Below, in pieces: positions 3,635 to 40,689 of a DNA stretch of 41,310 nucleotides. Source of the stretch: a virus. Both the position numbers and the translations under genes were made by a program. The stretch covers positions 1 through 41,310 of IMG/VR virus record IMGVR_UViG_3300022822_000037; one strand, 5' to 3'. A model generated the notes under the pieces. It did not search any database and was not told the origin of the DNA. It was given only the letters and a program-made list of their open reading frames with translations. Position 1 is the first letter of the stretch. The number at the start of each line of letters is the position of its first letter.

Positions 3635-3663
3635 TCTTGTGTAACCCCTAGTGCTATTAGTAT

Positions 3664-3671
3664 TATTTATC
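3664..3671 (-). promoter_or_regulatory. Late promoter box (GATAAATA)
   Basis: The minus-strand octamer GATAAATA matches seven of eight positions of TATAAATA. It ends 30 nt upstream of the ATG at 3634, in the 42-bp gap after the 635-aa gene. It would add late transcription of the three distal fibre genes. Confidence 0.55.
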
Positions 3672-3676
3672 GTTTA

Positions 3677-5584: not shown

Positions 5585-5585
5585 G

Positions 5586-7650: not shown

Positions 7651-8253
7651 TTAACCTGCTAAACTCTGTACACGTACTGTATAGTCAATTTGAATTAATC
7701 TATTAAGTGACTTTTGTACAGGGTGAAAAATAACGTGTGTAATTAGTCTACCAGTTCCGGCAGCACTATAACTACGTAACCCTAGTTCGTCAAACACATA
7801 CGGACTATCTGTTGCACTTGCAGTATCAAATGCATCTTGACCGTTAGGCTCGCCGTAATCAAGTAAACAACTTACAACAATATCAGTATAGTTTGTACCA
7901 CTAACATGCCTAGTTTCTAATTTGTTTCTTGCAGGATCAGTGTTGTTTACACTTCTGTCATCAACCACCTTGGTATAAGTTTGATTGTATAGACTTGCAT
8001 TTGTTCCTGTGCTGTTAGGTGTTAGATATGTAATAATACCTGTTGGATCAACGCTTGTGCCGCCGTTGCCAAAGCTCATTTCATATATAAAACCTGCACC
8101 GGCGTTAGATAAACTCTCAGCAAGTGCAATACTCATATTTTCATAGTGAATTGCATTGCGCTTGTTAATGTATACTTTTTGTGATTCAGGGTCAAATATT
8201 TTAATATGTCCCTGAACCAGTACTCCGTTTGTGTCTTGCATGTTATCGCTCAT
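7651..8253 (-). CDS. Conserved virion structural protein (200 aa)
   Basis: This 200-residue protein opens with VLVQGHIKIFDPESQKVYIN and continues ENMSIALAESL, EMSFGNGGTSVDPTGIITYL, YVFDELGLRSYS and ends THVIFHPVQKSLNRLIQIDY. These landmarks match a conserved hypothetical structural protein of marine T4-like phages as I remember it; I cannot assign a T4 number. Its place between the giant baseplate gene and the collar fibre suggests an adaptor between baseplate and fibres, as T4 gp9 and gp11 are by position (inference). The start is fixed by an AGGAAA ribosome site just upstream and a late box at 8271-8278. No membrane segment, signal peptide or catalytic motif is seen. Confidence 0.75.
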   Translation of the reverse strand: MSDNMQDTNGVLVQGHIKIFDPESQKVYINKRNAIHYENMSIALAESLSNAGAGFIYEMSFGNGGTSVDPTGIITYLTPNSTGTNASLYNQTYTKVVDDRSVNNTDPARNKLETRHVSGTNYTDIVVSCLLDYGEPNGQDAFDTASATDSPYVFDELGLRSYSAAGTGRLITHVIFHPVQKSLNRLIQIDYTVRVQSLAG

Positions 8254-8270
8254 TTATTTTTCCTATACTG

Positions 8271-8278
8271 TATTTATT
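8271..8278 (-). promoter_or_regulatory. Late promoter box (AATAAATA)
   Basis: The minus-strand octamer AATAAATA lies across the end of the giant gene, 18 nt upstream of the ATG at 8253. The predicted leader is only about 11 nt but still includes the AGGAAA ribosome site. It would give the fibre block a transcript independent of the 15-kb gene upstream. Confidence 0.5.
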
Positions 8279-11200
8279 CAGGTAGCGCAGATGTTCCGGC
8301 ACGTAAGAATCTTGCAATACTATTTTCTGTATCGCCTAGTGATACACCGTTTGTAGTCCAACTTTGACCCACTTTTTTCACAACTGTTACTCTAATATTT
8401 TCTGTTGGAGCAGTAAGTAGCGTAATTGAATTAGTGCCTACATCAAAAGTAAAGTCTGCGGTAACAGTAGTATCGCCTTCTGGACTATCTAGTGCAGTTA
8501 ACGGATTAAACACATCTAGCGTAGTCTTACGCTTGCGTGTACCTGCCACAAACACTTCAATCTCATTTATTGATGTTACTGGGTATCCAATTTCAAATAC
8601 GCTTGTAGCACCGTCTGCTGTAGCGTTAAACACCATTGTTTGATCTTTGTACGGAACTGTTTTACTTATGTTTTGATCGTAAACATCAGTACCAACTGCA
8701 TATGTATTTTTAACGCCAGTACCTAATGTTCCTCTACGTAGTTGACGCAGTGTATTACTTTCTTTTACAAAGTACTCAATGCGCTCGCCGGCAATAAAGA
8801 TTACACCAGGTAAATTTTGTCCCTTGTTTGGTTCTGACAACTCACTTGCATCATCTAATTCAATTCTTAAATCATAATAATTTAATGCTTGTGCTAGTTT
8901 AGCAGGTGCAATGTCAAGACGCTTAAAGTGTGTCCTGTTTAGCATATCTTTAAACTGCCTGAACGCAAACTTAGCTTTGCTAACTGGTGCAGTAAAATGG
9001 ATAATATCTATAACATCATTAGCCGCTGGCTGTCTAACTAACTGAACTTTTAGTTTATCATCAGTAACATAATAATCTACACTTGGTGTTAATAGTTCGC
9101 CGTTTACACTTACCCATACATACTGTGCATCAACTGCAGGCGCACGTAGTGTAATTTCTCCAACTGTTAATCTGTTGTAAGTAATATAATCTACATCTTC
9201 TGGTATTAGTGTAGTTCTTGCAACTACTTCGTAGTTGATACGTTCTAGACCTAATAAATTATGATTAGTAAATTGTAGTACTTCTACAACTGCTCCATTA
9301 GTAGGTGCAGTATCCAGCGTAACTGTAGTTCCGTTGATTCTGTAATCACCATCTGTAATTACATACATCTCAACCAAATCACCGGGTACGCCGATTTCGT
9401 CTGCAAGAGTAATACTACTGTTAGCAATTTCAAAACGCCATTGTGTCGGAGTAGAGATTTCAACGCTGTTTACAAATACCTTAACATCTGCAACATCCAA
9501 AGTGCCTTGCGGCATTTGGAATATTTCTAATGCATATTCTCTTTGATTACTTGCAGGAATAGTGTATTGTATATTGTATCCTGCATTTAGAATAGCGTTG
9601 TCTACTTTAACAATTACGTTATGCTCTGACGGTATAGCATACAATGGTGCTGCTGCTAATGTAAACACAGTATCAGTTCCGTTGCCAGTGAATGTATCTT
9701 TAGTAATTTGACTATAGTTAACTTCAGTATCTGCTGCAAATACAGTATAATTAATTACTGCATTAGTAGCAACAACTTGGTCGAATCTAATTACAGTTTT
9801 AGCAGTAGTGTCCGAAGCAAATGCTGAAACTGTTTGTTGCACACCATTAATGCTTGCATATACGCTTGCGCCCATTATCCAGTCAACAGTAGTTTCAAAT
9901 GCAGTTGTAGAACCGTCACCAATTAACTGCCCAAAATCTAATATATTTTGGGCACCTTGTGCAACTGACACAATACTAAGTTCTGCGCCTACTGTTGCAG
10001 AAGTTAGTGTAATTGTATTTTCTGCCCAATCAATTGTATAACCAGTTTGTGGCAATATAACATTAGCAACTTTTACAATTATTGCATCTTTGCTGCTTGG
10101 TGTAACACCTAAATCGTAAGCTAATGTACCATCCATAATATAGCTTTGACTATTAATAACGCCTTGTCCGGCACTATCTCTTGTATAAACTTTAATGTCA
10201 AGCGTATCAAGAACTTGTCCTGGAACAAGTTCTTCAGGTCCGCTGCTTGTTGTAGCAGTAACAAATCCGTCACCGTCTACAATAATTTCTTCTGCTGCAA
10301 TACCACGTGCTGATGTGTAAGCTAAATTGCCGCCGCTGAGCGCAGTATCATAACTATTTGCATCAGGAATAACACTTCCGTCACTTGTAGTTTTTCTTAC
10401 AACAAACACATCGCCGTCTAATAATTCTATACCCAGATCCTGTACATAAATTATATCAGTTATGCCGTCACCGGTAATACTATTTGTAATAGCATTTACG
10501 TTAGTTGGAGTAGCTGCATCAAAATTAGTATCATCAATTCTTACACCGTTTTTATAAAGATTATAAACAACGCCAGTTTCTAAAGCTGCACTTAACTGTA
10601 CTGCAATTGTTGAACCGTCTGCTGTAAAAATTTCATCTTCAAACGTGTTGTCAAACTCGTCCCAGTTATCAGTATACCATCCGGCAGTATCGAACCCAGC
10701 AGGACCGTCAAAATCAAAGCCGCGAACTTCAACGCCGCCGTAATCAACACCGGTCATTAGCTGTGATAATTCGTTACCGTACATTCCTGCAATTGGAGTG
10801 TATGCTAAATTAATTCTGTCTGCTGCATTTAACATACTTAGTGGAATATTATATTCTATACGGACAACTGAATTTAATTTAGGAGCTGTAGTAAATAGTA
10901 TCTTGCCCTGTTCTCTAACATAAGTTGTATCTAAATTTTCAATATTTCTAAATATGTACTTGCTACGCAGTTGCAATATGTTATCTACATATATTTTTAC
11001 TTTCTTAATATTAAGATCCATTGGCCACTCTAAGAAAAAGCGTGACTCAAATCCTGTTCCTGTAAATGTTTCAGTTTTAGCTAGCGAAGTAAACGTAAGT
11101 GTTCCGCTAATTCTATCAAACTTAATTTTAACACGAGGTGTTCTTACAAGACCGTTACCTAGTACTGCTGTTGCCGTTGGTAGTGTGCCTGTTTCTAACT

Positions 11201-14200
11201 GCGAACCTGAAATAACAACTACAGGAGCACTAGTATATCCGCTACCTGGATTAGTAACTTTAATACTAGTAATTTTGCCGTAACCCAAATATGCTTTTGC
11301 AGTGGCGCCCGTGCCGTTGCCGCCTGTTAGTCTAACAATAGGCTCATACGTATATCCACTGCCGCCGTCACTTAACATAATTTCAGTTATTTGATAACCA
11401 TGATTATCTTTCCAGTTTTTACGCGGATATGTAGTAGTGTCAAGATTTTCATTTATAATTTGACCATTTAGTATAATTGCGTTACTTGGCTGAATAGTAC
11501 CTGTAGTTTTATTGTATGCCGGCGGCAGATCAAAATCACTAATACTACTATTTGTGAGCTCTAACGAAGTGTACTCACTAACAAATTCTCGTACTTTGGT
11601 TGAATAGGGTTTAAACTCTTCAACAAAGTCTTGATAACTTGTTAGATTATCATTATTAAATGTTATGTCTTGCGTATTTAAAGATTCTCTATTATGCTTT
11701 GCTTTTACAAAACTAGTTTTAAACATCCAATCAACTGATGGCTGTTCTGACATTACATAACGTAATGCAGCCATGAATAGTTGATTGTATTCAATTTCTA
11801 GTTCGCCAACAAAAATATAATCCCTAATAGTTTCAAGTATAATTCTTAACTCAACACTAGGATTATTATCATAAAAGCTACTGTCAAAGCTTCTATTATC
11901 AAACCCAACTGTGTTTTTACTATAGTCATACAGCGCATCTTTAAATTGTATTGTACCACGTTGACGACCAATAGTGTTATAATTAATTGTATAATCTTCA
12001 GTATCTTGGTTGTCCACTTTTTGAAGCAATAGCCAGCCGCCTGAGCCAACTGTTTCAATCTTCACAATATTACCAATGTTGTTAGCTAAACTAGGTAGCT
12101 GATAAGAACCTGCAATTGTATTATTGATATTTGTAAACTGATTAAAGCCTGTAGCATACCAGTCTATATAATCCCAATATCCGTCTACGTTATAACTCTG
12201 TAACTTTCTTCTATACCAAGCATTGCCATTCCATGAATACATTGCCCACTTATTTTGAATACTTTCGTCGGCATTAACTAATACAGTAACCGGTCTAACT
12301 GAAATCGTAGTGGTCGCATCGTACCCCTTGCCAGCGTTGGTAATTGTAACTGAAGTAAGTTGCCCTAAATTGTTAATACTAATTGTAAATTCGGCATCAG
12401 TGCCGCTACCATTAATCTTAAAAGTAGGAGGAACTTTATAACCTCTGCCAGGCTCAGTAATATTAATTCTAGAAATTCTACCATTAGTAATTACCGGTGT
12501 TAATATAGCAGGCGAAATTTTATTTGTACTTACAAATACAATTTCAGATAGAGTATCTGTTGTTAAATCATACTCTTGAGATATTAAAGTAGGCTTAGAG
12601 TCTTGTTGCATTAGTGGCAAAATATTGTATTCATCAACTATAAGATTTTCTATTAGCTTTAAGTTGACTCGTTCAATGGTCTGTTTTAGTGCTTCAAACT
12701 TGTTGATAAACATACTTTGTCTTGGACGATTTTGCACGCCGTAACGGTTTTTTACACTTATAGTTGGATCTGGTACAATTCTATTGTTATCGTCAAATCC
12801 TATTAAACTGTCAAACCATTTACGCTCAATATCAGGATCTGGTCTACTTGTGCTTAACCCATCTGATATTAATTTGTATTGACTATGTACATTCTGTGTC
12901 TTTTTAGCACCAGTTGAATACTTAATATTTAATACTAAATCATCACTATCAATAAATGTATCAAAATTATTAAGAACAAACTTATTATTAGAAAGTAAAC
13001 TTACAAATGGATAGCCCTGCGTTCTTGGATTTTCAATTAACGCTGAAATATCCCTAATGCTTAGTTTTCTGTTTTCCATTACTGGAACAGTAATTTTATT
13101 AATTACCCAGAAATAATATCTGTTAGCAAATGTTTTACTAATATTGTCGTATGTTATTTTAGTTGAGTATCTAGCATCTCCAAACAAACTAATACCGCTA
13201 ATGCCAGCGGCTATTCCGTCAGGAGTATCAGCAACGCTATCCCATATGCTCGGGATATAGTTACTCTCAATCCATTCAAATACATCAATTCTTGCGCCCG
13301 GTGTTAGTTTATTCCAGTTATTTTTTTGGAATGTTGTTGAACCTTGATAAGCATGTGCAAATTTAGCACTTGATATATTCCACCAAACTTGTCCTACGTG
13401 TTTTTCTGTCCATGCCCTGTTAGGATCAACTGAGCTATCTGAAGTATTTCCTGTGTTATATACTGCAGGGTCAAATGGTGTCTTGAATGTAATTTCCTGA
13501 TCAGCCGGACCAGCAATTTTGCCTTGTACAGGGTCAATATAATCAATATAACTTACAATGCGGTTTTCACGTTTGTTGTACAAGAACATGCCGCGCATAT
13601 TCTCAACATCTACAGGCGTAGTGCCTTCGCTAATTACACTCCAAGCAAATTTACGTTCATTCTTTCTAAAGTCAAGCAGTATACCTTTACTATCGCTGTT
13701 AACTTGATCTGGCATACCAATATAAACGTGATTGTTTTTAGTATAAATACTTTCGCCAAAAGTAGTTTGGGTTAATGGATACACAAACTGTTCTGAATAT
13801 ATTAAGTTATTGTTAATATTTTCATAAACGTATACCACACCTTTGTCAAGTTTAATATTTCTAAAGTTTGTAAACTGGTTATCAAATGTAGTTGCAGTGT
13901 CCTCCGTAGCATTAAACGCAGTAACGTCAAACGTAGTTGGTATTGTCTGATCACCGTTTAAGCTTGACACTACTAAGTTATCAGTACCGTAAGATAACCC
14001 AAAGCCAAAGCCTTCGCTTTCTTCATTATTTGGCGGCATTAGTGTCTGTGTTAAAGTAAATGTTCCAGATGTTTGTGTATAAACATATACAACGCCTTGA
14101 TTAACTTTATTAGAATCATTTAGCATTGAACTTACAGCAATTTGTGTTCCTGCAGGATTCATACTAACTTTATCGCCCCACGCATCGACATTATTAGGAG

Positions 14201-17200
14201 CAGTAATTATTTGATCTAATACAAATTTGTCTTCAATTGCACGATAAATTGCAAGTTTTGTATTTGATGTACTAGTAGCATCAGTTTGTGTACTTGTTAC
14301 AACTAATACTTGTGCATCATCACTAATATCAAAACTCTTGCTAAATTCTAATATGTTTTCAATAGGATCAAATACTGTTTCATCGTAGAACGCATTTGCA
14401 GTTAGATTTGGCAAGTAACCTAAGTAATCTACATCTGTAGTAATTTCTATCCAAGAGTTATTTGAGACGCTAGGAATTACTGCACCTACTGAAATATTTG
14501 TTAGTGCTTTCCATAGTGCATTATTTTGTACAACTATATTATCTTTCTTATATGAATAAGTGTTGTCAAATGTGCCGCGGAAATTTGAATCTTTGCCGTG
14601 CTTCCAACTAATTTTATTCCAATAAGTTGTATCAACTATAACATTTTGGGCAGCAGTTGTATTTTTAAGTGCAATATAGTAATCATCTTTATATACTACA
14701 ATATCGCCTATTAAATATGCTATTAGTTGATATTCACCTTTAAATGCATCAGATAGTTTAGTGCCATGACGGAATATTTCAATTGCGCCAGGTTGCACTC
14801 TTCTGCCTGTACTATCAGTTTCACCGGAACTAGCAATACTATCACTAGCAACTAATAATGTATAATAATTTCCAGTTTGCACTATTGCAACTTTAGAACC
14901 AAAATTTCTATTTGCTGCTCTGTACTCTGATGCAAATACAGTTTGGAATCTATAACTACCGTCGCGTAATTTTCTGTATATAGCAATTGCGCCTTCGTTT
15001 TCCATTGAAGGACTAGATCCTGTTTTTTCTGCAGGAATATTGTAGATTTGTATATAATCTTTATTCAAACTGTACGGAGGGTTTGGCAATCTCTGAATTC
15101 CTGATTCAATTGTTTCATCAAAGAACCAATATTCTTCGTCAACAATAGTTGGATTAGAAACAATGTCAAAATTACTTACATTTTCAAATACCACTAGTTT
15201 ACCAATTAAAGAAGTTCCTAATACTATTTGGTTGTTTACATCTGAAATTGTACCAATTGTACGAGCAACATCTCCTGCTCTTAAATTCAAGTTTGCTCTT
15301 CTACGAATTTGGAAACGTCCAATATTTGTTTCTTGTGTCCAAGTTCCTGTAGTGCCATTTAAATTTGCAACAATCTTTACATAGACTCTAACACTAGTAA
15401 AGTTACGTTGCATAAACATTACTTCAGCACTACTGGTTGTAATTGAAGTTAGTGCTAGTCCGCCTTGGCCGTCTCTAGGAATTTGAACGTCTTCAAGAAT
15501 GTCTCCCACTTGAGGTTCGAATGCAAATCCTTGGAAGTCAAATTCACTAAGGGTAAAGTCAATATATCCATCCCATAAGTCAACAACTGTTTGTTCTTTG
15601 TTTAAAATATTGTATGTAAATCCTGCACTAGCAACGTCAATAATTCTATTATTAAGATCATACAATCTAAATTCAGCAGTAGACCCAATAGTTAAATTAT
15701 CAGTAAACGATGTTCCTGCTCGGGCTACCCATTTGTTGCTAGGTAAATCTCTCTCAACTCCGTCAGCAGCGTCTTGATTTGCAGGGTCGCCGCGATATGA
15801 TAACTGTTCAAGGTAGCTTGCTTGATTTCTGTTAGTTACATAAGCACCAATAACAGCTACAGTATTTTGAATATTGTAGTAACGATTAAAGTCTCTTACC
15901 GATCCCTGTAGTCTAACATCTGCATAAACTAAGCCACGTCCAATATCATAATATGTACTATTATTTGAATACGTAGGCGTAGCAATCATCCAGAAGCCGT
16001 CAACCGCAGTTGTTGTGCTAAATGTTGACTCTTCAGTGTAACTCCCTACAAAGTCCAGTTCTTCTATAAACAATTCTCCAGTAATATTAAAAACACCATT
16101 AGTGTTTTTAATATATATTACTGCACTATCGTTGCGGGTGCTAACATATGCTACTGTTGCACTACCGGTATCTGTTGTTACAACATTGCCTATTATCGGC
16201 AATGTTACAAATGTCTCAACAAAAAATACATGGTCAATCTTTTCAATAATAGTGTGAGCTTGGCTTAAAAAATCTGCTGTAATTTGCGGTATTGCATTAT
16301 CAAAAGGAAGATAGTTGTCTAATGTTGGATATGCAAAACTACGACGATTCCAGAACAAGTTTACCGTATCGCCAGCGGCTGTACCAATATACATGTCTTT
16401 AGGAGCACGCACTAATAGGTGACTAACTATGTTATTAGGTAATCCTAGATCGCCTGTAACTAATAAGGTTAATGTTGTACTATCAGCATCTGCTGCACTG
16501 GCAATGTTTACATAAGTATCAAATGTACTAAATGGTTGGTTAGCAATTTGAGGTAGTATTTGTCTGTTAGCTTTCCATAGACTTTCTCTATAACGTACAA
16601 TATCATTTTTAATATACGCTGCATCTGGTTGGAAATCAAATGTACTTAATCCTGTATCAGCATCTGTTTTATATGATAGTCGAGTTTTAACATTGCTAGC
16701 TTGCGGAATACCTACAATAAGATACTCGCCGTCTGGCGATACTGCAATACTTTTTCCAAAAGCAGAATTATCACGAGTAAACAAGTCGTCATTTTCTATA
16801 ATAATTTCTTGATCTAATAATAAATTTGAAACTTCCCTAGTTCTTCTGTATACTGATACTTTGCCGTTAGCATCATTAGGTGCCGACACAAAAACATTAG
16901 TGTTATTTTTTGTTATTGCAACACTATTACTAAAGCCCTGATCTGTGCTATCATACAACGACGGATTTGTAATTGCTTGAGAATTTAAATAAACTGCGTT
17001 ATTTTCTAATACTGCCCATTCGCTATTATAGGTATCAATCCATAATCGTTGTTTGCTATAAATGTCTTGATTAGTTGCAGCATTAATTTCAGTAACATTG
17101 CTAACTCTTATAGTTCTTAACTTAGATACTGTAAACTTTTCTTCTTCAAAGTCCGAGATGTCGTTAACTAATGGAACTCTTATTTGAACAGTATTAAGAC

Positions 17201-20200
17201 TTATATTATCAATTTCGTACAATCCATTAATTGAATATTCTGTTGCTCCGCGAATACCAATATAGTCGCCTACTTCTAGTGTTCCAGCTGCCCACTTATC
17301 TAATGTTATTTCAACTAAGTTTAGTCCGTTGGTTGCTACACCTTGAATAAGCGTACTTACGCCAAGTGCATTTACGTTTGCTCGTACTAATTGCATTACT
17401 GTCCATGATTTATTATCTGTATCAGTTATCCAAATAGTATCACCTAATTTAATTTGGTTAGTGTCTACTGCTGACAGATCTATCATATTACCTACAACAA
17501 AATCAACATCGTCCGCATTTGTATAACCAGCAGTTTTAATATATTCTCTAGTTATTGTTTTAGTTGGAAACGGTGCGTGATTATATCCTGCAGGCTTATC
17601 AAATACTTCGTTTGGTAAAATTCTATAAACCTTATCAAAATTAGTTATAGGCAATGACATGACAAGTTCAACTGCTTGAGGAGACTCTTGCATTTTATCT
17701 TGTTTTAAATTGTATTCAACCTGTTGAACGTCCTCAGTTGCTCCATAACGACCAACTTGTATTGCCCACTCTTCGTAGAACTCTAAATTATCAGTAGTAT
17801 TACCAAGTGCATTAAACAACTTAGTAAACACATTCATTGTGCCCTTGTCTGCAATTGCACCTCTGTAGAATTTAAACTGACTTACATCATCATTAATAAT
17901 GTTAGCAAGGTACTGGCGCTTTTGATAACCTATTAAATGCTGTGCCATTTTTTGCTGTTCAGTATCAAAACTATCTGAATCTAAGTCGTAAAAATCAGTA
18001 AACTGTGTAACTCTATAATCAAAGTTAGTAATTAGTTGTGATACTGGTTTTTCGTTTAGTCGATACCATAATGCAGAATCAAAGTTCTGTGATCCAGTAA
18101 CATTACTAGTTGCAACATAATAATATTGTTTGTATTTTACAATATCACCAATAACATAATCTTTCCATTGTGCCCAGTCAGTATATTTTGCATCATCATA
18201 GACAAACCCCGGAATGTTTAGGCCGCCGTTCCAATTATCTGATCTATAACCGTTAACACGAATTCGTTCTTGTCTGTATCCAGTACTCGGATTGTAAATT
18301 GTATCATTAAAATCTGTTGTGTTGTCTAATAACACAACATGCTCTTTTTGTACTAATGGAAGCGATACGTGATACAATCCCTCGTCGGTACCAACTGTTT
18401 GAATACCAAAACTATTTTGATCTCTTAATAGACTGTTAAATTCCGAAGATAAAAACTGTCCGTCGGCTTTAAAAATACTATAGCCGTAGAACTCGTCTTT
18501 AATGTTATCAACTACACAATAATCTCGTTGGAATTCTAATAAGTTTGCTGCTGGACTTAGTGCAATTAACGAGTTATTTGCCCAACCTTGAGTTGTCCAG
18601 AATAGAAATTCTTTTGCACTTTGGTTCCAGTTTTCAACTGAATTAGTTCTGTCAATAACATTTTCAAAACTGAATCCAATTTCTTTTTGTCTTATACTAT
18701 AACCTAAAATAAAGTCAACAACTTCTTGTGCAGTGTTAAGCCGACTGCCGTACTGTAAAGTTTTAAGTTCAACAGTGTCAAAATCTTTCTTAAACTGTGC
18801 GGTTCTGCCTCCGCTTACTGGAAGTGCAGGAAGCTTAACTATATCATTAGTATCAAATGATAGTGTAGTAGTAAAGGAATTAATTACTCTATAATATGCA
18901 TTATTATGTTGTATTACTTCGCCGCTGATATAAGACGTGTTCGTTTCCCAAGGAGATACTTTTTCGGAAATACCGCCGACAGTAACTGTTGAAGATGTTG
19001 ACCCTTCCCTAGCTGCATAATATTCAAAATACGGCTTTTCTAGATTATACCCTCTTATTACATATCCTAGTTCGGTGCGTTCTGCAATAATACCACTAAA
19101 CACTGCTAGTTCACTAGGACTACTTGTGTTTAAAAACACTTGATAATTTTCTTGAGGAACAAAAATTCCATCTTGTGTAAGAGATTGCGCAGGTGATCTA
19201 CTGTCAAGAATTATATTAAATTTTTCTTTACTTGTAAATCCAGCAATCTTAACACCTAGCTGATTATTAATTGTAGCTAAATCAGTTTTGTATCCTTCGT
19301 ATACTGTTAGAATATCACTTGCTACAAGGTTATAAATGTAATTTACTAAACCTGCTGTATTAGTTCTAACATCTGATTGATACGTATTTGGTAATGTTAA
19401 ATCTTTAATAACTACTGGTTTATTTGTACCTATGTCTACCCATTGGTTAGCCAAGTTCTTTAGTACTCTTGAAACGTCAAACCCTAATCCCATTGTTTTA
19501 GCAGGCTTGTTTAGTAACATTGCAGTTAGTATAGCAAATGGATAGTCTGAACTTCTGCGCCATGCATTTTCAACTGGAGCGTAATCGCCAAATTTAAAGT
19601 TTCTAGTAGCACTTTGTATCTGGAAATTTCTAGTATACTTACTGTTCAACGGCGATAATAATTTACCGTTACTATCAACTGGAATAAATCTAGTTAGACC
19701 AGGACGAGCATAATTTAAGTCAATTCTAGCATTTGCAGGATCTGCAATGCGGCCAATTTCTAGGTCTTTCCAAAGTACTAAGTTATCACCTGTATAAGGC
19801 GCAGGACCGTATACTGTATTCCACCAGCTTGGCTTAGTTGTTAAGCCTAACATTTCCCAAGGGTGACTGTGCGGGCGATCTGTATCAAATGCTCTTACAT
19901 ACATTCCTCTCCAGAAGCCTGCGTTTTCATTGCCGTCTGGTGAAGTAGTGTCTGAATAATTAAATGTCCAGTTGTTGTTTCTGTTGTAAAAAGTATTGTT
20001 AGTATATGTTTGATTGTTTAAATTTTCTTGTAACCACTTTTGAAAATCTCCAAGGAGTGAATTATCAATTTCAATTTTTGTAAATTCGTTAGTTCTAAAT
20101 TCGCCGCCCATGAATGTGTTGACATCTAATCTATCAGTTGAATACTGTGCCTTAATATTGTTAAAGATACGCTTTTCTAATTCTAACAGTAATTCGTCTC

Positions 20201-23200
20201 TAAAGTCTTTATATGCTTTAATGTAACTACCGTCGTGTCCTCTAATAAATGCAACGCCAATTGGGTATTCATCAATTTCAATGTCATCATTGCCAGCAAG
20301 TGTCGCGCCTGTTGTAGGAATGTAAAATATTTTATTCATTCCTACAAAGGTGTAAGACTTTGAAGTTGCACCTGTGCCTGCTACACCCTTAGTTGTATAA
20401 ACAGGATAGAACCAACCTCTAGTACCAGTAGCACTGTCTTCGCCGTAAACTTTAAACGGACCAGTAGATACTGGCTCGTCGGCCAGCACAGTATCGTCAA
20501 TTGTTAATTCAGGATAATATTTTGGAAATAGTCCTAATTTTGTAGGAGTAGGTGCAATGAAGCTGCCGTCTGTGGTTGCATACTCGTGTATTTCAATTTT
20601 ATCATCTTCTATTTGGCCGGCGTTGATTGATATATAACCTGCTACATTAAAGTTATAATCTTTAATGTGTGTTAGCTGGATTCCATTTAAATAAACCGTT
20701 ATGCTTGTTGAACTTAGAGTTAAAAGATTATAGGTAGTAGTGAGTGGATAATCTTGTACTCTTGAATCTAATACTTTATATACAATTTTGTTAGACGATC
20801 CCGATGCAAGCATATCCGAAAAGTAAAACGGCTGTGACGTTACTTTATCACTATTAACAGTTTTTAAAATAAGGTCAACGTGCGTTTTAACTGGGCCGTC
20901 ATATCCTAAACTAGCAGCAGTGTCTAAGAATGTTTTCTTAAATCTTGAATACTCTTTTTTAGAATACTTTAATGCTTTTACAATATTATAGCTTTTATTT
21001 GTTATGTGATATAACGGTAAATTTATTGGTCCACTGTGTTTAACAAATCTTTTACCATAACGATCTAAGTCACCTAAATCACGTAGGTTGCTTGATCCAA
21101 GGTATGTTCCGATATAGCCAGGTATATCTTCCAGCATACTATCAACATGATCAATTACTTCACCTAATGTGAATTGATTAACATCGTCATTTAGCGGATT
21201 ACGTTCTAAATTGTAGGGGAACTCATAATATCCATTAGAATTTTTAATAGTTTTACTATTTGTTTTAATTTTAATAACATCATTAATTGTTAAATTGCTA
21301 TTAAAAACAATAACTGCATTTGGTTTAGTTTTATCAATTGTGTAATCAGTATTAACTAACTTTAATTTGTTGTTTACAAATACTACTACTTTTATATCAG
21401 TTACACTGCTTGAATTTTTATAAACATCAATTTTAAAGTTATTAACTTGAATATCAGTTGCTGCGTATTCTCTTATAACATACTGCTTACTGATAGTAGG
21501 AGTGCTACTAAATCCGTTTACATAATTAAAAGAAGTAAGTGATTTAAACTTCTTTAAATAACCGCTGTTAATAGCTTGTGAAAATAAGTCTGTCTCGGTT
21601 TGATATGTAAAAGTATCGTTTAATAAATTAAAATCAAAGACAATATCGCCTGAATTTTCAATTGATTTATAGCTTAACACAAATCCTAATTCAGTATCAA
21701 AGCGTGTTCCGTCGCCTACTGCATATGAAAATAATTTAGATCCTTTGAAAGTAGATGAACCGTAATATGCTTCATCACTAAAACTATTTCCAGTTACATC
21801 AAATACTTCAAACATTGGTGCTTGATTACGTGTTGTTTTTTCTTGCGCAGCTACCCATTTGCCGCCTTGGTAGTGATAACTTTTTCCTGCATTTTTTACA
21901 CCTTGTGTAACTAATACAGTTTCAAGATCAATAGGAGTAGTATCAATAGTTTCTACTAAACTAATTTGCCTAGAATTATTAATTGTAACAAATTTAACTT
22001 GATAAATTTTACCGCTTACTAGTATATCAGTGTCGGCTGCAAACAAAATGCGCATGTTGTCAGCAAGATTAATTCCGTCAATATTATAACCTAGTTGGCC
22101 TTCAATTGTACTAAACACATCAGTAGTATATGTGTCAATTAAGTCAACATCAGTTTTAGCATATGCACCAAAATTATTTAATTTTAACCCTGCTTCAAAT
22201 TCTATAATAGGGCGTTTAGCACGAGCCGATTCGTCAACATCTCTTGGAAGGTTATTGAAACGGAAACTTTTTAAAATTACATCTTTGTGATGCCATCTAT
22301 TATAACGACTCCAGGCATTTCTATCAGGCGATGCTCTGTTAACTATAATATAATCTTTTTCAGTTGCATAAGCACTTGCATCAGCAAATGGTAGTGTATC
22401 AAACTCATCGCTATCAAACGGAATAAGTTTATTATCGCTGTATGCTGCTGGAATAATTAAATCTTGATCTTTAATTAAAGTTATTTTAGTGCCAACGCCT
22501 TCAACATACCAATCATGAGTTTCATATGCAGCCGGTGTCACGTCGCCCTGGAATCTAATTTTCATTCCGTTTGACAATTCTATACCGTTTGCACTTTTAT
22601 ATGTTTTCTTACCTAAAATATCTTCAGCTACATCTAAGAAGGCGTTTTCTTCGATGTCATAAATTTTAATAAGACCGCTAGTATCTACTGCGTTTTTGCT
22701 AACGTAATAAAGTTTGCCAGGTGCATTAAAAGGAATAGTAAATTGTATTGTGCCCTTTTCAATATATGCAATTGCAACTTCTTCGCCTTCTTCGCCTAGC
22801 TTACGGATGCCGTCTGGATATAATGTCGAAACGTTATCATCAGCAGCAAATGTTACGCTACCGCCGCTTGGAAGAATAATATATTCACCTTGGTCATATT
22901 CATTGCCGTAGAGTACTGCGTCAAATAATCCTACAGCGCGTAATCCTTCTGTTCCGGCTGTCAAAATAGCAGTACCGGGAGTAAATGATCTACTGATAGC
23001 AATAGCCATCGGGTGGCCAGGAGTATCAATATCAAAGCGATATGTCTGGCCTCGGTATAATTTTAATTTAGGATTACGTGTTAGACCGTCGTTAAATACA
23101 TAAGCAACACTGTCGCCCTGATCTTCTACTGTAACAGCGTAAGTACTAACAACTTCTCTACTTTGACCACTGACTGTAACACTTAGAGGACCGTTAGGTA

Positions 23201-23651
23201 ACCAGTAATATTCACGGAAGTTTACAAATTTATCCCAGTCAATGTTAGGATTCCATGCATAGGTTTCCTGACTGTTTAGACGGCTATGATTATCAGTGTT
23301 TGCACCAAAGACGCCCAGCTGTCCTATATAATCATTGTAGTCTTTATAAAAAGTTACATTGTTATAATTGTCTTTAATAACAGTAGCAGGTTCTAGTTGA
23401 TAATTAGTTCTATCATTAGTTACATCATCGTTATAATTGTCCGATGTCTTATATGCCTTAGCTGTTGTTCTGCCGTAGTATCCATTGATTTTTTCAGCAA
23501 CACCAGGTTGTATAAGTTGATCAAGTGTACCTTGTAAAAACTTTTTATTTGCTTGTGTTCTAAAGAACTTAGGTAAAAAATCACTTGCAGTAATTTTATT
23601 ATTCTGACCTGGGACAGGCAGAGCGCTCTCGTTTTGATCATTCTTAGCCAT
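8274..23651 (-). CDS. Giant multidomain baseplate/tail structural protein (5125 aa)
   Basis: One uninterrupted frame of 15,378 bp follows gp6, joined by a TAATG stop/start overlap. In T4 this place holds gp7-gp11, so a baseplate-wedge role is likely. Visible parts, with approximate residues: an N-terminal region (DFLPKFFRTQANKKFLQGTL, near 25); a cupredoxin-like segment (170-340, YRGQTYRFDIDTPGHP); a YNRWHHKDVIL / RAKRPIIEFEA stretch (450-500) also recalled from marine phages; five CBM5/12-like WxxGxxxxYxxxYY segments (1575, 1825, 2345, 2980, 3030); about seven FG-GAP-like blades (2240-2310 and 2920-3310); paired G-x-GY repeats (3735-3785, 4095-4150); and GDGST-type beta modules to the end. 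There is no protease or lysozyme motif and no internal stop. Homologues probably exist in marine T4-like phages; the gp7 equivalence is inferred from position. Confidence 0.85.
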   Translation of the reverse strand: MAKNDQNESALPVPGQNNKITASDFLPKFFRTQANKKFLQGTLDQLIQPGVAEKINGYYGRTTAKAYKTSDNYNDDVTNDRTNYQLEPATVIKDNYNNVTFYKDYNDYIGQLGVFGANTDNHSRLNSQETYAWNPNIDWDKFVNFREYYWLPNGPLSVTVSGQSREVVSTYAVTVEDQGDSVAYVFNDGLTRNPKLKLYRGQTYRFDIDTPGHPMAIAISRSFTPGTAILTAGTEGLRAVGLFDAVLYGNEYDQGEYIILPSGGSVTFAADDNVSTLYPDGIRKLGEEGEEVAIAYIEKGTIQFTIPFNAPGKLYYVSKNAVDTSGLIKIYDIEENAFLDVAEDILGKKTYKSANGIELSNGMKIRFQGDVTPAAYETHDWYVEGVGTKITLIKDQDLIIPAAYSDNKLIPFDSDEFDTLPFADASAYATEKDYIIVNRASPDRNAWSRYNRWHHKDVILKSFRFNNLPRDVDESARAKRPIIEFEAGLKLNNFGAYAKTDVDLIDTYTTDVFSTIEGQLGYNIDGINLADNMRILFAADTDILVSGKIYQVKFVTINNSRQISLVETIDTTPIDLETVLVTQGVKNAGKSYHYQGGKWVAAQEKTTRNQAPMFEVFDVTGNSFSDEAYYGSSTFKGSKLFSYAVGDGTRFDTELGFVLSYKSIENSGDIVFDFNLLNDTFTYQTETDLFSQAINSGYLKKFKSLTSFNYVNGFSSTPTISKQYVIREYAATDIQVNNFKIDVYKNSSSVTDIKVVVFVNNKLKLVNTDYTIDKTKPNAVIVFNSNLTINDVIKIKTNSKTIKNSNGYYEFPYNLERNPLNDDVNQFTLGEVIDHVDSMLEDIPGYIGTYLGSSNLRDLGDLDRYGKRFVKHSGPINLPLYHITNKSYNIVKALKYSKKEYSRFKKTFLDTAASLGYDGPVKTHVDLILKTVNSDKVTSQPFYFSDMLASGSSNKIVYKVLDSRVQDYPLTTTYNLLTLSSTSITVYLNGIQLTHIKDYNFNVAGYISINAGQIEDDKIEIHEYATTDGSFIAPTPTKLGLFPKYYPELTIDDTVLADEPVSTGPFKVYGEDSATGTRGWFYPVYTTKGVAGTGATSKSYTFVGMNKIFYIPTTGATLAGNDDIEIDEYPIGVAFIRGHDGSYIKAYKDFRDELLLELEKRIFNNIKAQYSTDRLDVNTFMGGEFRTNEFTKIEIDNSLLGDFQKWLQENLNNQTYTNNTFYNRNNNWTFNYSDTTSPDGNENAGFWRGMYVRAFDTDRPHSHPWEMLGLTTKPSWWNTVYGPAPYTGDNLVLWKDLEIGRIADPANARIDLNYARPGLTRFIPVDSNGKLLSPLNSKYTRNFQIQSATRNFKFGDYAPVENAWRRSSDYPFAILTAMLLNKPAKTMGLGFDVSRVLKNLANQWVDIGTNKPVVIKDLTLPNTYQSDVRTNTAGLVNYIYNLVASDILTVYEGYKTDLATINNQLGVKIAGFTSKEKFNIILDSRSPAQSLTQDGIFVPQENYQVFLNTSSPSELAVFSGIIAERTELGYVIRGYNLEKPYFEYYAAREGSTSSTVTVGGISEKVSPWETNTSYISGEVIQHNNAYYRVINSFTTTLSFDTNDIVKLPALPVSGGRTAQFKKDFDTVELKTLQYGSRLNTAQEVVDFILGYSIRQKEIGFSFENVIDRTNSVENWNQSAKEFLFWTTQGWANNSLIALSPAANLLEFQRDYCVVDNIKDEFYGYSIFKADGQFLSSEFNSLLRDQNSFGIQTVGTDEGLYHVSLPLVQKEHVVLLDNTTDFNDTIYNPSTGYRQERIRVNGYRSDNWNGGLNIPGFVYDDAKYTDWAQWKDYVIGDIVKYKQYYYVATSNVTGSQNFDSALWYRLNEKPVSQLITNFDYRVTQFTDFYDLDSDSFDTEQQKMAQHLIGYQKRQYLANIINDDVSQFKFYRGAIADKGTMNVFTKLFNALGNTTDNLEFYEEWAIQVGRYGATEDVQQVEYNLKQDKMQESPQAVELVMSLPITNFDKVYRILPNEVFDKPAGYNHAPFPTKTITREYIKTAGYTNADDVDFVVGNMIDLSAVDTNQIKLGDTIWITDTDNKSWTVMQLVRANVNALGVSTLIQGVATNGLNLVEITLDKWAAGTLEVGDYIGIRGATEYSINGLYEIDNISLNTVQIRVPLVNDISDFEEEKFTVSKLRTIRVSNVTEINAATNQDIYSKQRLWIDTYNSEWAVLENNAVYLNSQAITNPSLYDSTDQGFSNSVAITKNNTNVFVSAPNDANGKVSVYRRTREVSNLLLDQEIIIENDDLFTRDNSAFGKSIAVSPDGEYLIVGIPQASNVKTRLSYKTDADTGLSTFDFQPDAAYIKNDIVRYRESLWKANRQILPQIANQPFSTFDTYVNIASAADADSTTLTLLVTGDLGLPNNIVSHLLVRAPKDMYIGTAAGDTVNLFWNRRSFAYPTLDNYLPFDNAIPQITADFLSQAHTIIEKIDHVFFVETFVTLPIIGNVVTTDTGSATVAYVSTRNDSAVIYIKNTNGVFNITGELFIEELDFVGSYTEESTFSTTTAVDGFWMIATPTYSNNSTYYDIGRGLVYADVRLQGSVRDFNRYYNIQNTVAVIGAYVTNRNQASYLEQLSYRGDPANQDAADGVERDLPSNKWVARAGTSFTDNLTIGSTAEFRLYDLNNRIIDVASAGFTYNILNKEQTVVDLWDGYIDFTLSEFDFQGFAFEPQVGDILEDVQIPRDGQGGLALTSITTSSAEVMFMQRNFTSVRVYVKIVANLNGTTGTWTQETNIGRFQIRRRANLNLRAGDVARTIGTISDVNNQIVLGTSLIGKLVVFENVSNFDIVSNPTIVDEEYWFFDETIESGIQRLPNPPYSLNKDYIQIYNIPAEKTGSSPSMENEGAIAIYRKLRDGSYRFQTVFASEYRAANRNFGSKVAIVQTGNYYTLLVASDSIASSGETDSTGRRVQPGAIEIFRHGTKLSDAFKGEYQLIAYLIGDIVVYKDDYYIALKNTTAAQNVIVDTTYWNKISWKHGKDSNFRGTFDNTYSYKKDNIVVQNNALWKALTNISVGAVIPSVSNNSWIEITTDVDYLGYLPNLTANAFYDETVFDPIENILEFSKSFDISDDAQVLVVTSTQTDATSTSNTKLAIYRAIEDKFVLDQIITAPNNVDAWGDKVSMNPAGTQIAVSSMLNDSNKVNQGVVYVYTQTSGTFTLTQTLMPPNNEESEGFGFGLSYGTDNLVVSSLNGDQTIPTTFDVTAFNATEDTATTFDNQFTNFRNIKLDKGVVYVYENINNNLIYSEQFVYPLTQTTFGESIYTKNNHVYIGMPDQVNSDSKGILLDFRKNERKFAWSVISEGTTPVDVENMRGMFLYNKRENRIVSYIDYIDPVQGKIAGPADQEITFKTPFDPAVYNTGNTSDSSVDPNRAWTEKHVGQVWWNISSAKFAHAYQGSTTFQKNNWNKLTPGARIDVFEWIESNYIPSIWDSVADTPDGIAAGISGISLFGDARYSTKITYDNISKTFANRYYFWVINKITVPVMENRKLSIRDISALIENPRTQGYPFVSLLSNNKFVLNNFDTFIDSDDLVLNIKYSTGAKKTQNVHSQYKLISDGLSTSRPDPDIERKWFDSLIGFDDNNRIVPDPTISVKNRYGVQNRPRQSMFINKFEALKQTIERVNLKLIENLIVDEYNILPLMQQDSKPTLISQEYDLTTDTLSEIVFVSTNKISPAILTPVITNGRISRINITEPGRGYKVPPTFKINGSGTDAEFTISINNLGQLTSVTITNAGKGYDATTTISVRPVTVLVNADESIQNKWAMYSWNGNAWYRRKLQSYNVDGYWDYIDWYATGFNQFTNINNTIAGSYQLPSLANNIGNIVKIETVGSGGWLLLQKVDNQDTEDYTINYNTIGRQRGTIQFKDALYDYSKNTVGFDNRSFDSSFYDNNPSVELRIILETIRDYIFVGELEIEYNQLFMAALRYVMSEQPSVDWMFKTSFVKAKHNRESLNTQDITFNNDNLTSYQDFVEEFKPYSTKVREFVSEYTSLELTNSSISDFDLPPAYNKTTGTIQPSNAIILNGQIINENLDTTTYPRKNWKDNHGYQITEIMLSDGGSGYTYEPIVRLTGGNGTGATAKAYLGYGKITSIKVTNPGSGYTSAPVVVISGSQLETGTLPTATAVLGNGLVRTPRVKIKFDRISGTLTFTSLAKTETFTGTGFESRFFLEWPMDLNIKKVKIYVDNILQLRSKYIFRNIENLDTTYVREQGKILFTTAPKLNSVVRIEYNIPLSMLNAADRINLAYTPIAGMYGNELSQLMTGVDYGGVEVRGFDFDGPAGFDTAGWYTDNWDEFDNTFEDEIFTADGSTIAVQLSAALETGVVYNLYKNGVRIDDTNFDAATPTNVNAITNSITGDGITDIIYVQDLGIELLDGDVFVVRKTTSDGSVIPDANSYDTALSGGNLAYTSARGIAAEEIIVDGDGFVTATTSSGPEELVPGQVLDTLDIKVYTRDSAGQGVINSQSYIMDGTLAYDLGVTPSSKDAIIVKVANVILPQTGYTIDWAENTITLTSATVGAELSIVSVAQGAQNILDFGQLIGDGSTTAFETTVDWIMGASVYASINGVQQTVSAFASDTTAKTVIRFDQVVATNAVINYTVFAADTEVNYSQITKDTFTGNGTDTVFTLAAAPLYAIPSEHNVIVKVDNAILNAGYNIQYTIPASNQREYALEIFQMPQGTLDVADVKVFVNSVEISTPTQWRFEIANSSITLADEIGVPGDLVEMYVITDGDYRINGTTVTLDTAPTNGAVVEVLQFTNHNLLGLERINYEVVARTTLIPEDVDYITYNRLTVGEITLRAPAVDAQYVWVSVNGELLTPSVDYYVTDDKLKVQLVRQPAANDVIDIIHFTAPVSKAKFAFRQFKDMLNRTHFKRLDIAPAKLAQALNYYDLRIELDDASELSEPNKGQNLPGVIFIAGERIEYFVKESNTLRQLRRGTLGTGVKNTYAVGTDVYDQNISKTVPYKDQTMVFNATADGATSVFEIGYPVTSINEIEVFVAGTRKRKTTLDVFNPLTALDSPEGDTTVTADFTFDVGTNSITLLTAPTENIRVTVVKKVGQSWTTNGVSLGDTENSIARFLRAGTSALPE
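10209..10234. repeat. Perfect 10-bp inverted repeat inside the giant gene
   Basis: AAGAACTTGT (10209-10218) is followed by a 6-nt loop and ACAAGTTCTT (10225-10234). It lies in coding sequence. About one such repeat is expected by chance in a window this AT-rich, so function is uncertain. Confidence 0.6.
16084..16114. repeat. Perfect 13-bp inverted repeat inside the giant gene
   Basis: ATATTAAAAACAC (16084-16096) and GTGTTTTTAATAT (16102-16114) are exact reverse complements around a 5-nt loop. On the minus strand the transcript would form a long A/U-rich stem in mid-gene. A 13-bp perfect stem is unlikely by chance here. A weak attenuator or an mRNA-stability element is possible; no following T-run is seen. 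Confidence 0.7.
20312..20347. repeat. 11-bp inverted repeat with palindromic loop inside the giant gene
   Basis: TTGTAGGAATG (20312-20322) and CATTCCTACAA (20337-20347) are exact reverse complements. The 14 nt between them contain TAAAATATTTTA, itself a palindrome, so the whole could fold as one long, nearly continuous stem. It is coding sequence, and regulatory meaning is unproven. Confidence 0.6.
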
Positions 23652-26600
23652 TAGTAACTATAGCCTCCACTTGTTGTGTTAGTTGTTGTTGTTGTTGCAC
23701 TGCTTGATATTCCTGCGGTTGTACTAGTTGATATTGACGTTGCACTGCTTGATATTCCTGCGGTTGTACTAGTTGATATTGACGTTGCACTGCTTGTTAT
23801 TCCTGCGGTTGTACTAGTTGATACACTATTAATTACTGTACCACTAGCTTGTAAATTAGTAGCTGTTATTTGATCAATTGTTTCAATATCACTTACTTTA
23901 GCAGCACTTGCAAATATTTCATCTGGTTCACATTTAATTTCAAATAAGCTACCAAATGATTGTGTTGTCTGCCTCGGAACTATCAATATACTTACCAATT
24001 TAGGCGACAGCTGGTTTATAATATAGGCACTAAGTTCTTGGAAGTAAAATGTCTCTCCAAAGTCCCAATTTTCAATATCAAAAAACTGATTAATTGCGTC
24101 AACAATCCCTGATTTAAGTTCATTGTCATTGATAACTACATTAGCATTTTTAACAATTTTAAATTTAACTTGCAAATCCGGAGTTGCTTTATCTCCAAAC
24201 AATACTTTATATTTTGCAGGATGATAAATTATTTCGTCGCTTATACTTTTTATTTTATTAATCGCGGTTCCATAACTTCTAAATAATTCATCGTTACTGG
24301 GCGGCTTAGGCTTTGTTAAAATTGTTCCAGCAATATATTGCTTTACTTGTATATCATAAGACTTTGATAACACATATGTATCAATAATATTACTTGCACT
24401 TGGGTCAATTCTATATCCACTATCAGCAACATGGATATAATGAAATTTTAACCCTGAACGGCCAAAATATGCTTTATAGTCTGTATTAATTACAGTGTTG
24501 TTTAGTACTTTATTAAGCTTTCTAAAAATACCTTCATCAATTAGATAAAATATCTGCCCTTCTAATCGTGCGCTGTAGGGAGATATTGCTGCTTCGTTTT
24601 GTACTATAATTATTTCAGCAGTTATATTTGCAAAATATTTAAAGTCTTCTACACCGTCGGTTGTTGTATATTTCTTTTGGAATATTAATTTGTCTGCGGT
24701 TGCAATTGCAGTATTTTCTTCACCAACAATTTGTTCAAATATATCTGGATCATCGACTACTCCGTCATCGTCAAGATCAATAAACTGAACTTGAATTTTA
24801 CGGCTGTCTAGATATCCTTCTACATCTCTATATGCATCAGTGATCGTCCAGTTAAAGTCTGTTGTAAGCGGTGTTAGCGCACCGGGTTTACGATTAATAT
24901 TTAAGATATTAATCTTATCTCTAACTATTTGACCGGTTGCAGGATCATAAATTTTATCAGCAGCATCAAAGAAGAATCTAATCTCATCTGCACTTTCCAT
25001 TATGTATCTTAAATTACGATAGGTAATTGTGTATTTTTCACCATCTGTTTTAAAGTATAACATCCAACTTGCATCAAGATTCTCACCGCTAATATCGCCT
25101 GCTTTACCAGTTGCAAAAGCGCCAAGTGTATTAATGTCTTCTGCTAACACAATCTTCCATTGTCTATTATACTGATCGTATCGTAGTGCAAAGTCTCTGT
25201 ATTCAAATGTTTGGTCAATTAATTCTACTTTTACATCGTTAATTAATACTTTAGAATAATTAGAAATTAATTGCTGTAATATTGCACCAGTTGGAATAAT
25301 ATCATTTAGCGCGATAGGCGCAATTCCGTCTTCATCTATAGTTGTTCCTGCACCAGAAACAGACACTATTTTAGACCACTTATAATTTGTTTTTCCTAAA
25401 TGATCTACATCATTGTCATCCATTAGGGTGCCGTCTGGCATAAAATGCTTGCCGACAGGAGCAACAAATTTTAACATTGTTCCTGCTTCTACCAACCGCA
25501 AACTATTAGCAGTAAAACTACCTACTGAATATGCATTGCTATCAATATCTTGAAGCAGGCCTAATGACTGGTTTGTACTTGTGCTTGACTGCAACCAAGT
25601 TGCATTAAGGTCACTAACAATAATTTTTGGATATTTTGCAAGATAGAAATTTTGTGTGCTTACACTTCCTAAAATTTCTTCAATAGTGTTGTATATAACA
25701 CCTTCAATATCTGTTTGCGTAGCAAACGTAAACGACTGCTTTTCAACAAACTCTTCTTTGTAAATTACGCCGTCGTCTGCAAATAAACTAGTATTTGAAT
25801 ACTTTCCGCTGGCATCTTTTAAATCAAAAAATCTGCTTATCCCGCTTGATATTCTGTTTGTACTTTTAGTTTTAATAATATCTTGACTAATAGCAAGCGG
25901 ACCAATGTTATAATCTTCACCTGTAATTAAACGATTTTGTGTATAGTATGTAGTAGGTGCATTTTGTTTAATTTCAGCATTAGTTTCAGTAGCAGTACCG
26001 TTACTAACTGTATAATTTAATTTAAGACCAATAGTAAGTGTTTGCACTGATCCGTTTCTTGCTTGGTAAGGAATCTCAATGCTTACAGTATTAATTGCAC
26101 CGGGCGTTATTACACTGCGTATATTATTACTAGTTCTATAGTATGATCTAAAATTGCCAGCTGGTAAATTTCCAAATACTCCGTCACTAAAGTTTAAATT
26201 AATTCTGTCACCAATACGAGTAGTTACTGCAAATACATCTCTAGTTTTATTGAACAAACTATTATAGATAACATTATTACCTTCAGTTGAATCAATTTTT
26301 GTCCATTGGTTACTCTCAAACCCTGCGCTATTTAGTGCAAATAGCCAAACATCAGAGTCATTAATATTTTCAGCATCAATTTGAACTGCTTGGTTGGGTG
26401 TAGGGTTAGTTACTGCAAAATTTCCTGTTTCAAGTTTGCCTTGACGGAAATGCATAAAGAATCCAGTGTTAGCACTTCCAGCGCCTTGGCCGTCATCACG
26501 GAATAAGAATGCAGGACTATTGCCTGGTAGCGGAGCTTCTTCTATAATATCTTCCGCTGATAAGTCAGTACTTACAATTTCAAAACGTGTACTTATACCT

Positions 26601-27282: not shown

Positions 27283-27717
27283 TTAAAGTAGTCCGTTTTC
27301 TTTATCAAATTTAAAGCGTAATTGGTCAGTTACTCCAAACGGCAGCACAGTTATTGTACAATCAATCTGTATACCTTGTTCGTAAGTATCTATTACAATG
27401 TCTTCAGCTCTTATTCTAGGATCGTAGTTAATAATACGAGTAACATCTTCAATTATTGCTTCTTGTACTTCAATGGTAAATGGCTCGTATAATATATCCC
27501 ATATTATTGTGCCAAATGTAGGATCACTTAATTTTTCAGTTTGACGTATATGAAAATGATTTATTAAATCTTGTTTAATAAGTTCAAAGTCATACAAACT
27601 AAAACTTTTAGCATCTGCAACTGTAGAAAATCCTCTATATTTTCTACCTACTGTAGATTTTTGTACAGGCTGACTTACAGTTACTCTTTTATACAGATTT
27701 TTTTCTAATTGACTCAT
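27283..27717 (-). CDS. 25: Baseplate wedge protein gp25
   Basis: This 144-residue protein (T4 gp25 is 132 aa) belongs to the gp25/GPW family, present in the baseplates of contractile tails and in type VI secretion (TssE). Visible pattern: an AKSFSLYDFELIKQDLINHF segment, TFGTIIWDILYEPFT near residues 72-86 with the family's hallmark EP, then ITRIINYDPRI-like text (VTRIINYDPRIRAEDIVI) and a C-terminal beta hairpin. It sits between gp5 and gp6, consistent with wedge assembly in which gp25 joins gp6 and gp53. The start is 14 nt after the gp5 stop. Family membership gives no expectation of real lysozyme activity despite the historical name. Confidence 0.92.
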   Translation of the reverse strand: MSQLEKNLYKRVTVSQPVQKSTVGRKYRGFSTVADAKSFSLYDFELIKQDLINHFHIRQTEKLSDPTFGTIIWDILYEPFTIEVQEAIIEDVTRIINYDPRIRAEDIVIDTYEQGIQIDCTITVLPFGVTDQLRFKFDKENGLL

Positions 27718-40657: not shown

Positions 40658-40689
40658 GTAGCCTACTCCATATACCGGTAAGTATACTC

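Follow-up and report, generated by a model that had tools for sequence, protein, structure and literature searches.

The window analysed here, a fragment of 41,310 bases held as an IMG/VR record, encodes a protein of 5,125 residues (about 560 kDa), which is a new member, marine judging by its relatives, of a known but unexplained family of giant virion proteins. This giant is probably baseplate wedge protein 3 (BW3, the position of gp7 in T4 and gpI in P2) in an expanded form, in which wedge-core KGT helices would be combined with conserved cores acting as an arm and with accreted docking modules. Databases label such proteins "virion structural protein" or "hypothetical", and a naming of the giant as gp7 was not found in the openly accessible literature; the present analysis proposes gp7/BW3 as the probable identity and maps the domains. 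The genes at the centre of the argument are the following:

27283-27717, minus strand: gp25-like wedge subunit, BW1 (PF04965, E 1.2e-6)
23651-27217, minus strand: gp6-like wedge subunit, BW2, 1,188 aa (phrog_10646, E 4.7e-297; phrog_219, E 2.8e-23)
8274-23651, minus strand: giant gene, proposed expanded BW3 (gp7/gpI-type) wedge protein, 5,125 aa (open reading frame, homologues, phrog_10938 match)
7651-8253, minus strand: conserved 200-aa gene directly downstream of the giant (phrog_11259, profile match)

The frame starts with ATG, contains no N and lies exactly where the earlier note had placed it. On other contigs, 76 homologous frames are complete, with lengths of 4,506-5,345 codons from stop to stop (some contigs being counted twice), and Ka/Ks against one relative (L010) stays within 0.08-0.21 across all full 512-codon stretches; the giant is thus a real, selected gene and neither a chance frame nor a misassembly. 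A near-identical copy is found on a 56-kb contig (L006), and the largest contigs carrying relatives reach 275 kb (L161). The TAA stop of gp6 shares one base with the ATG of the giant (ACTAATG), with GGAGG just upstream. Since such a stop/start overlap is seen in 35 of the 39 giants checked, the translational coupling to gp6 that had been proposed earlier is conserved in this lineage, RaK2 and PA5oct excepted. Just before the coupled start, at 23660-23800 on the minus strand, the C-terminal tail of gp6 is of low complexity, rich in Ser/Thr, with repeated SSATSISTSTTAGI units.

In all nine jumbo phages inspected, a giant of 3,323-4,555 aa is flanked by gp6 on one side and by the fibre genes or the next tail genes on the other: RaK2 (3,326), 121Q (3,323), CBB (3,340), XaC1 (3,332), Vibrio 2.275.O (3,771), SCTP-2 (3,807), PA5oct (3,857), Atu_ph07 (4,449) and Phosso (4,555). 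The order gp25-gp6-giant is common to the window, PA5oct, Atu_ph07, RaK2, 121Q, CBB, XaC1, Phosso and Vibrio 2.275.O. In eight of the nine relatives, the annotation of the gene directly upstream of the giant names gp6, a wedge protein or a CBM protein, and a gene of gp25 size precedes it; in SCTP-2, this neighbour is a large frame without a name. By tblastn, the giant was detected in 84 isolated phages, the matches listed being of the RaK2/121Q/CBB/PA5oct/Atu_ph07/SCTP-2 jumbo type, and the RaK2 query returned 87 records, with the very distant XacN1 and RAS14 added. Searches of IMG/VR viral contigs encoding relatives gave 345, 300 and more than 590 stretches; the PA5oct and SCTP-2 giants as queries found no relatives among viral contigs. 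The phrog_10938 profile matches the window giant with 1012.6 bits over 6 stretches. The giants that the earlier note expected in marine T4-like phages do therefore exist, but their lineage is better named after the jumbo phages RaK2, PA5oct and Atu_ph07, and the family was already known as phrog_10938. The giant is the largest virion protein of this lineage, which infects E. coli, Klebsiella, Pseudomonas and Agrobacterium; the contigs point to many aquatic hosts besides.

Presence in virions has been shown for the giants of three relatives, which does not contradict the reading of the earlier note. The record of PA5oct gp355 is marked ESI-MS/MS. The giant of phAPEC6, gp245 (381.88 kDa), which comes after the wedge protein gp244, gave 17 unique peptides in virion mass spectrometry (PMC7247149), and that of CBB, CBB_236, which adjoins the wedge protein CBB_237, gave 21 (PMC5259590).

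The assignment to BW3, the family of T4 gp7, P2 gpI and TssG, starts from gene position. The giant gene directly follows BW2 (gp6/J), the slot held by gp7 after gp6 in T4, by gpI in P2 (W-J-I) and by gp48 in Mu (46-47-48). A short conserved region within the giant points in the same direction:

17742-17999, minus strand: proposed BW3 core helices, residues 1885-1970, FYxGxIxxKGT (KGT at 1936-1938), LG at x10, then EW (alignments; P2 gpI profile; low pLDDT in isolation)

All giants aligned have FYxGxIxxKG[TS]......[LF][FL] or something close to it around residue 1936. The corresponding motifs are HKGTIGAIRRVVEPLG...EW in P2 gpI, FYSTKGIEASYKFLFKVLY in T4 gp7 and FYKTKGTAEGFRILFRVLY in cyanophage S-SCSM1, and the spacing KG[TI]-x10-L[GY] is identical in these three proteins and in the giant. 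A P2 gpI profile built from 35 gpI proteins was scanned over 250 windows of the giant alignment (125 forward, 125 reversed). It peaked at residues 1841-2060, with scores of 25.9, 25.5 and 24.4 against 19.1 for the next window, and KGT was aligned with KGT. The same profile scores 14.8 on the core of T4 gp7, an accepted homologue, which is below the score of the giant.

The homology to gp7 that we infer from these comparisons is likely, though not proven, because no single score reaches significance (hhalign of the core gave at most 13% probability), the curated models are silent and the T4 gp7 core profile is unspecific. Pfam Tail_P2_I, phrog_964 and the T4 gp7 model match no jumbo relative, Tail_P2_I being a weak test since it is silent on T4 as well; scanned over the giant, the T4 gp7 core scores 19.7 in the KGT window, within background. 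When large blocks of the giant were compared by hhalign with the gp7 proteins of T4 and S-SCSM1, nothing but GGxGY modules was matched. The KGT motif alone is not specific, as a PDB profile search with this region yielded nothing beyond a chance match to the unrelated transporter p37. A barrel resembling gp7 domain V at about 2480-2525 scored 27.3, above the KGT window, but with 15% probability, and was not used.

Structure prediction covered 2,211 of the 5,125 residues (821-2020 and 3290-4300). The AlphaFold2 model of residues 821-2020 (pLDDT 80.3) is confident apart from its N-terminal edge and the KGT helices, for which low confidence is expected if they fold only together with gp6. Fold comparison, a route to gp7, gp8 and gp10 put forward by the earlier note, matched no T4 wedge protein in either block. 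Searches of the whole giant against Pfam, PHROGs and PDB sequences returned its own family and small modules only. The map of the giant is as follows:

17652-23651, minus strand: conserved core A, residues 1-2000 (alignment occupancy and identity; shared with all nine jumbo relatives inspected)
21252-21470, minus strand: jellyroll copy 1 of T7-fibre-N/gp10-D3 type, residues 728-800 (profile self-match, 92%)
20550-20816, minus strand: jellyroll copy 2 of the same type, residues 946-1034 (best place for the gp10 profile; block fold matches)
18816-18974, minus strand: CBM5/12-like module 1, residues 1560-1612 (PF02839, E 2e-8, over cut-off; chitin-binding domain folds)
18045-18188, minus strand: CBM5/12-like module 2, residues 1822-1869 (profile self-match)
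13632-16940, minus strand: FG-GAP beta-propeller of about seven blades, residues 2238-3340 (FG-GAP_2, E 1.5e-6; relative L158, E 1.4e-9; repeat scan)
16560-16649, minus strand: CBM5/12-like module 3, inside the propeller, residues 2335-2364 (profile self-match)
14475-14735, minus strand: CBM5/12-like modules 4 and 5, between propeller blades, residues 2973-3059 (profile self-match)
11412-13634, minus strand: conserved core B, residues 3340-4080 (alignment; predicted model)
12297-12479, minus strand: GGxGY module 1, residues 3725-3785 (profile matches; also in cyanophage wedge proteins)
11130-11399, minus strand: GGxGY module 2, residues 4085-4174 (profile matches)
8352-11084, minus strand: string of T7-fibre-N-type jellyrolls, residues 4190-5100 (Phage_T7_tail; repeats)

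The propeller is predicted from a Pfam match over cut-off and from its repeats. Full blades were traced by the repeat scan at 2238-2288, 3102-3154 and 3155-3212 and half blades at 2296-2323, 2884-2911 and 3266-3293, which amounts to five blades, blade 2 being split by an insert of about 560 aa; placement by eye put blade 3 near residue 2917 and blade 7 near residue 3298. A separate self-repeat scan of the giant covered about half of the window pairs, and repeats in the later windows rest on profile self-matching. As to the jellyrolls, Phage_T7_tail scores 25.5 bits on the 4640-4900 piece, against a cut-off of 25.2, and the 821-2020 block gave short Foldseek matches, reported without query positions, to TSP4 of CBA120 and to the fibre anchors of podophages. 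When a jellyroll module was searched as a profile against the PDB, influenza PA and others came up, which were taken as chance. Domains of the gp10 XD2/XD3 type serve other tail proteins as docking sites in T4 and CBA120 (PMC8825819). The ligands of the propeller and the CBM-like modules may be glycans or fibres.

The site that follows the KGT core is variable: it holds the propeller in the window, an insert of about 1,500 aa in the Agrobacterium/Sinorhizobium phages Atu_ph07 and Phosso, and almost nothing in RaK2, the RaK2-type phages having 265 aa for the stretch from residue 2000 to residue 3400. The Atu_ph07 insert was at first thought, from alignment occupancy, to be a propeller too, which profile comparison ruled out (4.5%); the inserts of Atu_ph07 (L002) and Phosso (L174) match no propeller. 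This pattern suggests that BW3 has a lineage-specific insertion site. A bolder extension, which we consider conceivable but doubtful, would make jumbo BW3 an open platform with an insertion hotspot after the KGT core, receiving unrelated modules of about 1,100-1,500 aa; the propeller and CBM-like modules would then form a host-facing sensor or receptor-binding organ within the wedge, replacing the gp8-gp11 layer.

In the baseplates studied, BW3 joins two gp6 subunits per wedge and carries receptor-binding proteins (PMC10811340). The KGT helices (1885-1970) would likewise associate with a pair of gp6 subunits to form the wedge core bundle, an arrangement known for BW3 from the contractile baseplates examined to date, and conserved cores A and B would build the wedge arm. 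The remainder of the giant is an accretion of binding-type modules (jellyrolls, CBM5/12-like, GGxGY, and the FG-GAP propeller right after the KGT core), which are proposed to dock the fibres encoded next door and to brace neighbouring wedges. They would take over tasks that fall to gp8-gp11 in T4, yet would not be derived from those proteins. With its many docking-type jellyrolls, such a BW3 could hold the adjoining fibres (window 2156-7640) and brace a baseplate which, in RaK2, measures 35 nm (PMC3622015). Such fibre docking is plausible rather than certain, since phage tails generally contain jellyroll and CBM folds. In addition, the docking form of gp10 is a trimer, whereas each wedge contains a single gp7. 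The proposal suggests that a baseplate can become complex through the enlargement of a single wedge protein by modules, without the addition of gp8-gp11.

Three successive fibre-like genes at 2156-7640 (minus strand) share an N-terminal domain of about 130 aa (NENFLxLLENF...GQLWYD...LKVYDG), probably the attachment end, and the one nearest the giant has a tail-collar domain (PF07484) at its end. The 200-aa gene at 7651-8253 is the sole gene between the giant and these fibres, in keeping with the earlier observation that no gp7-gp11 gene stands between gp6 and the fibre genes. A gene of about 200 aa also follows the giant in PA5oct, SCTP-2, Vibrio 2.275.O, Phosso and Atu_ph07; it is absent at this place in RaK2, 121Q, XaC1 and CBB. 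Elsewhere on the minus strand, two genes of 328 and 307 aa (174-2146) are apparent paralogues by eye, and a gp5-like spike (27731-30211) has a VgrG3-like C-terminal domain (PF21277, E 4.7e-27) at a position where T4 has a lysozyme and the relatives GH24. On the plus strand, HNH-type and GIY-YIG-type homing-endonuclease-like genes (39699-41118) were recognised by eye after a gp46-like gene.

The earlier note had left open whether the giant absorbed or replaced gp7-gp11, proteins whose combined length in T4 it rightly put at about 2,500 residues (the sum is 2,475). A true fusion, in which gp7, gp8, gp10 and perhaps gp9 and gp11 became one chain with each segment an orthologue, would account for a total length exceeding that of gp7-gp11. 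It could also draw on the weak local excess of the gp8 profile at about 4042-4085 (28.9 versus 21.7 reversed, over 44 columns, 10% probability) and of the gp10 profile at about 930-1034 (29.7 versus 21.2 reversed), as well as on a Gp10_D3 match in one relative (E 0.016). The gp9 and gp11 profiles, however, stay near background (20.4 versus 18.1 and 20.4 versus 15.7 reversed, at most 1.5% probability each), as does the full-length gp7 profile over the whole giant; the two modelled blocks lack T4 wedge folds, the gp10-like domain is generic, present in many copies and out of the gp7-gp8-gp9-gp10-gp11 order, and S-SCSM1 retains a separate gp8 beside its own giant gp7. A fusion is therefore unlikely. 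The giant does occupy the gp7 slot, and absorption of gp8-gp11 would, by these profile comparisons, be confined to gp10-like modules. Since the window is a fragment, the absence of gp8-gp11 elsewhere is testable in relatives only. In the complete genomes of PA5oct, Atu_ph07, RaK2 and SCTP-2, the T4 gp7, gp9 and gp11 profiles have no match, while T4 itself is readily detected, and nothing credible was found for gp8, so that the proposed lack of separate orthologues was not contradicted. A 28-position gp8 match in Atu_ph07 (E 0.008) was taken as chance, and matches of the cyanophage gp8 profile in jumbo relatives run mainly through the GGxGY repeat. With the gp10 profile, the matches were limited to a C-terminal domain of PA5oct gp358, to small fibre domains and, in one genome (G001), to short N-terminal stretches. 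Module gain together with absence of gp8-gp11 fits better than fusion, and their loss, or their never having been there, is simpler, because these proteins are absent from simple baseplates such as that of P2 as well.

The abundance of adhesion-type modules (propeller, CBM5/12-like, T7-fibre-N-like) and a gp7 score that is never significant would also suit a giant adhesin or fibre scaffold, anchored in the baseplate and merely adjoining gp6, the true BW3 being a small unrecognised protein encoded elsewhere. We hold this to be improbable: cores A and B are kept even in RaK2, 121Q, CBB and XaC1, which are devoid of adhesion modules, the giant directly follows gp6 in the relatives, and the gpI profile picked out the KGT motif blind. 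Less probable still is a polyprotein cleaved after translation into several mature tail proteins, an idea to which the size of the giant, the variable insert between two conserved cores and the 7-8% sequence coverage by mass spectrometry in phAPEC6 and CBB (PMC7247149, PMC5259590) leave room. No protease site or internal start was identified in the giant, it is listed as a single protein for phAPEC6 and for CBB, and separate genes in this slot were seen in no relative inspected, bar a few records with a match in two or three frames.

The closest known systems are the phrog_10938 giants of the RaK2/121Q/CBB/PA5oct/Atu_ph07 type, which occupy the same slot after gp6, are virion components by mass spectrometry and align with the window giant over cores A and B, where conserved stretches have about 15-43% identity per 100 residues. 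The window giant is longer (5,125 versus 3,323-4,555 aa) and has an FG-GAP propeller, which the RaK2 type lacks and to which the insert of Atu_ph07 and Phosso is unrelated. Milano BW3 belongs with T4 gp7 and P2 gpI among the close systems. T4 gp7 and P2 gpI, the two covered by the sequence comparison, resemble the giant in their position after gp6/J and in the KGT motif with the same spacing; they are much smaller (1,032 and 176 aa, respectively), and the surrounding domains are not detectably shared. The jellyrolls have the fold type of CBA120 TSP4, the T4 gp10 XD domains and the N-terminal domain of T7 gp17, but those are parts of trimeric fibres or pins, whereas the giant's are modules of a protein in the wedge position. 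Cyanophage S-SCSM1 has a giant gp7 of its own (PQC12_gp015, phrog_2885; 4,120 aa; 8137-20499 of record L166), which, like the window giant, comes directly after gp25-gp6 and has a KGT core and GGxGY modules. It differs by a core near the N-terminus (residues 194-274), with clear T4 gp7 homology (94.8% probability), and by a separate gp8 of about 520 aa beside it, and the two giants show no overall alignment. S-SCSM1 is a precedent for the giant of the window, a parallel instance of a wedge protein grown to great size but arranged differently.
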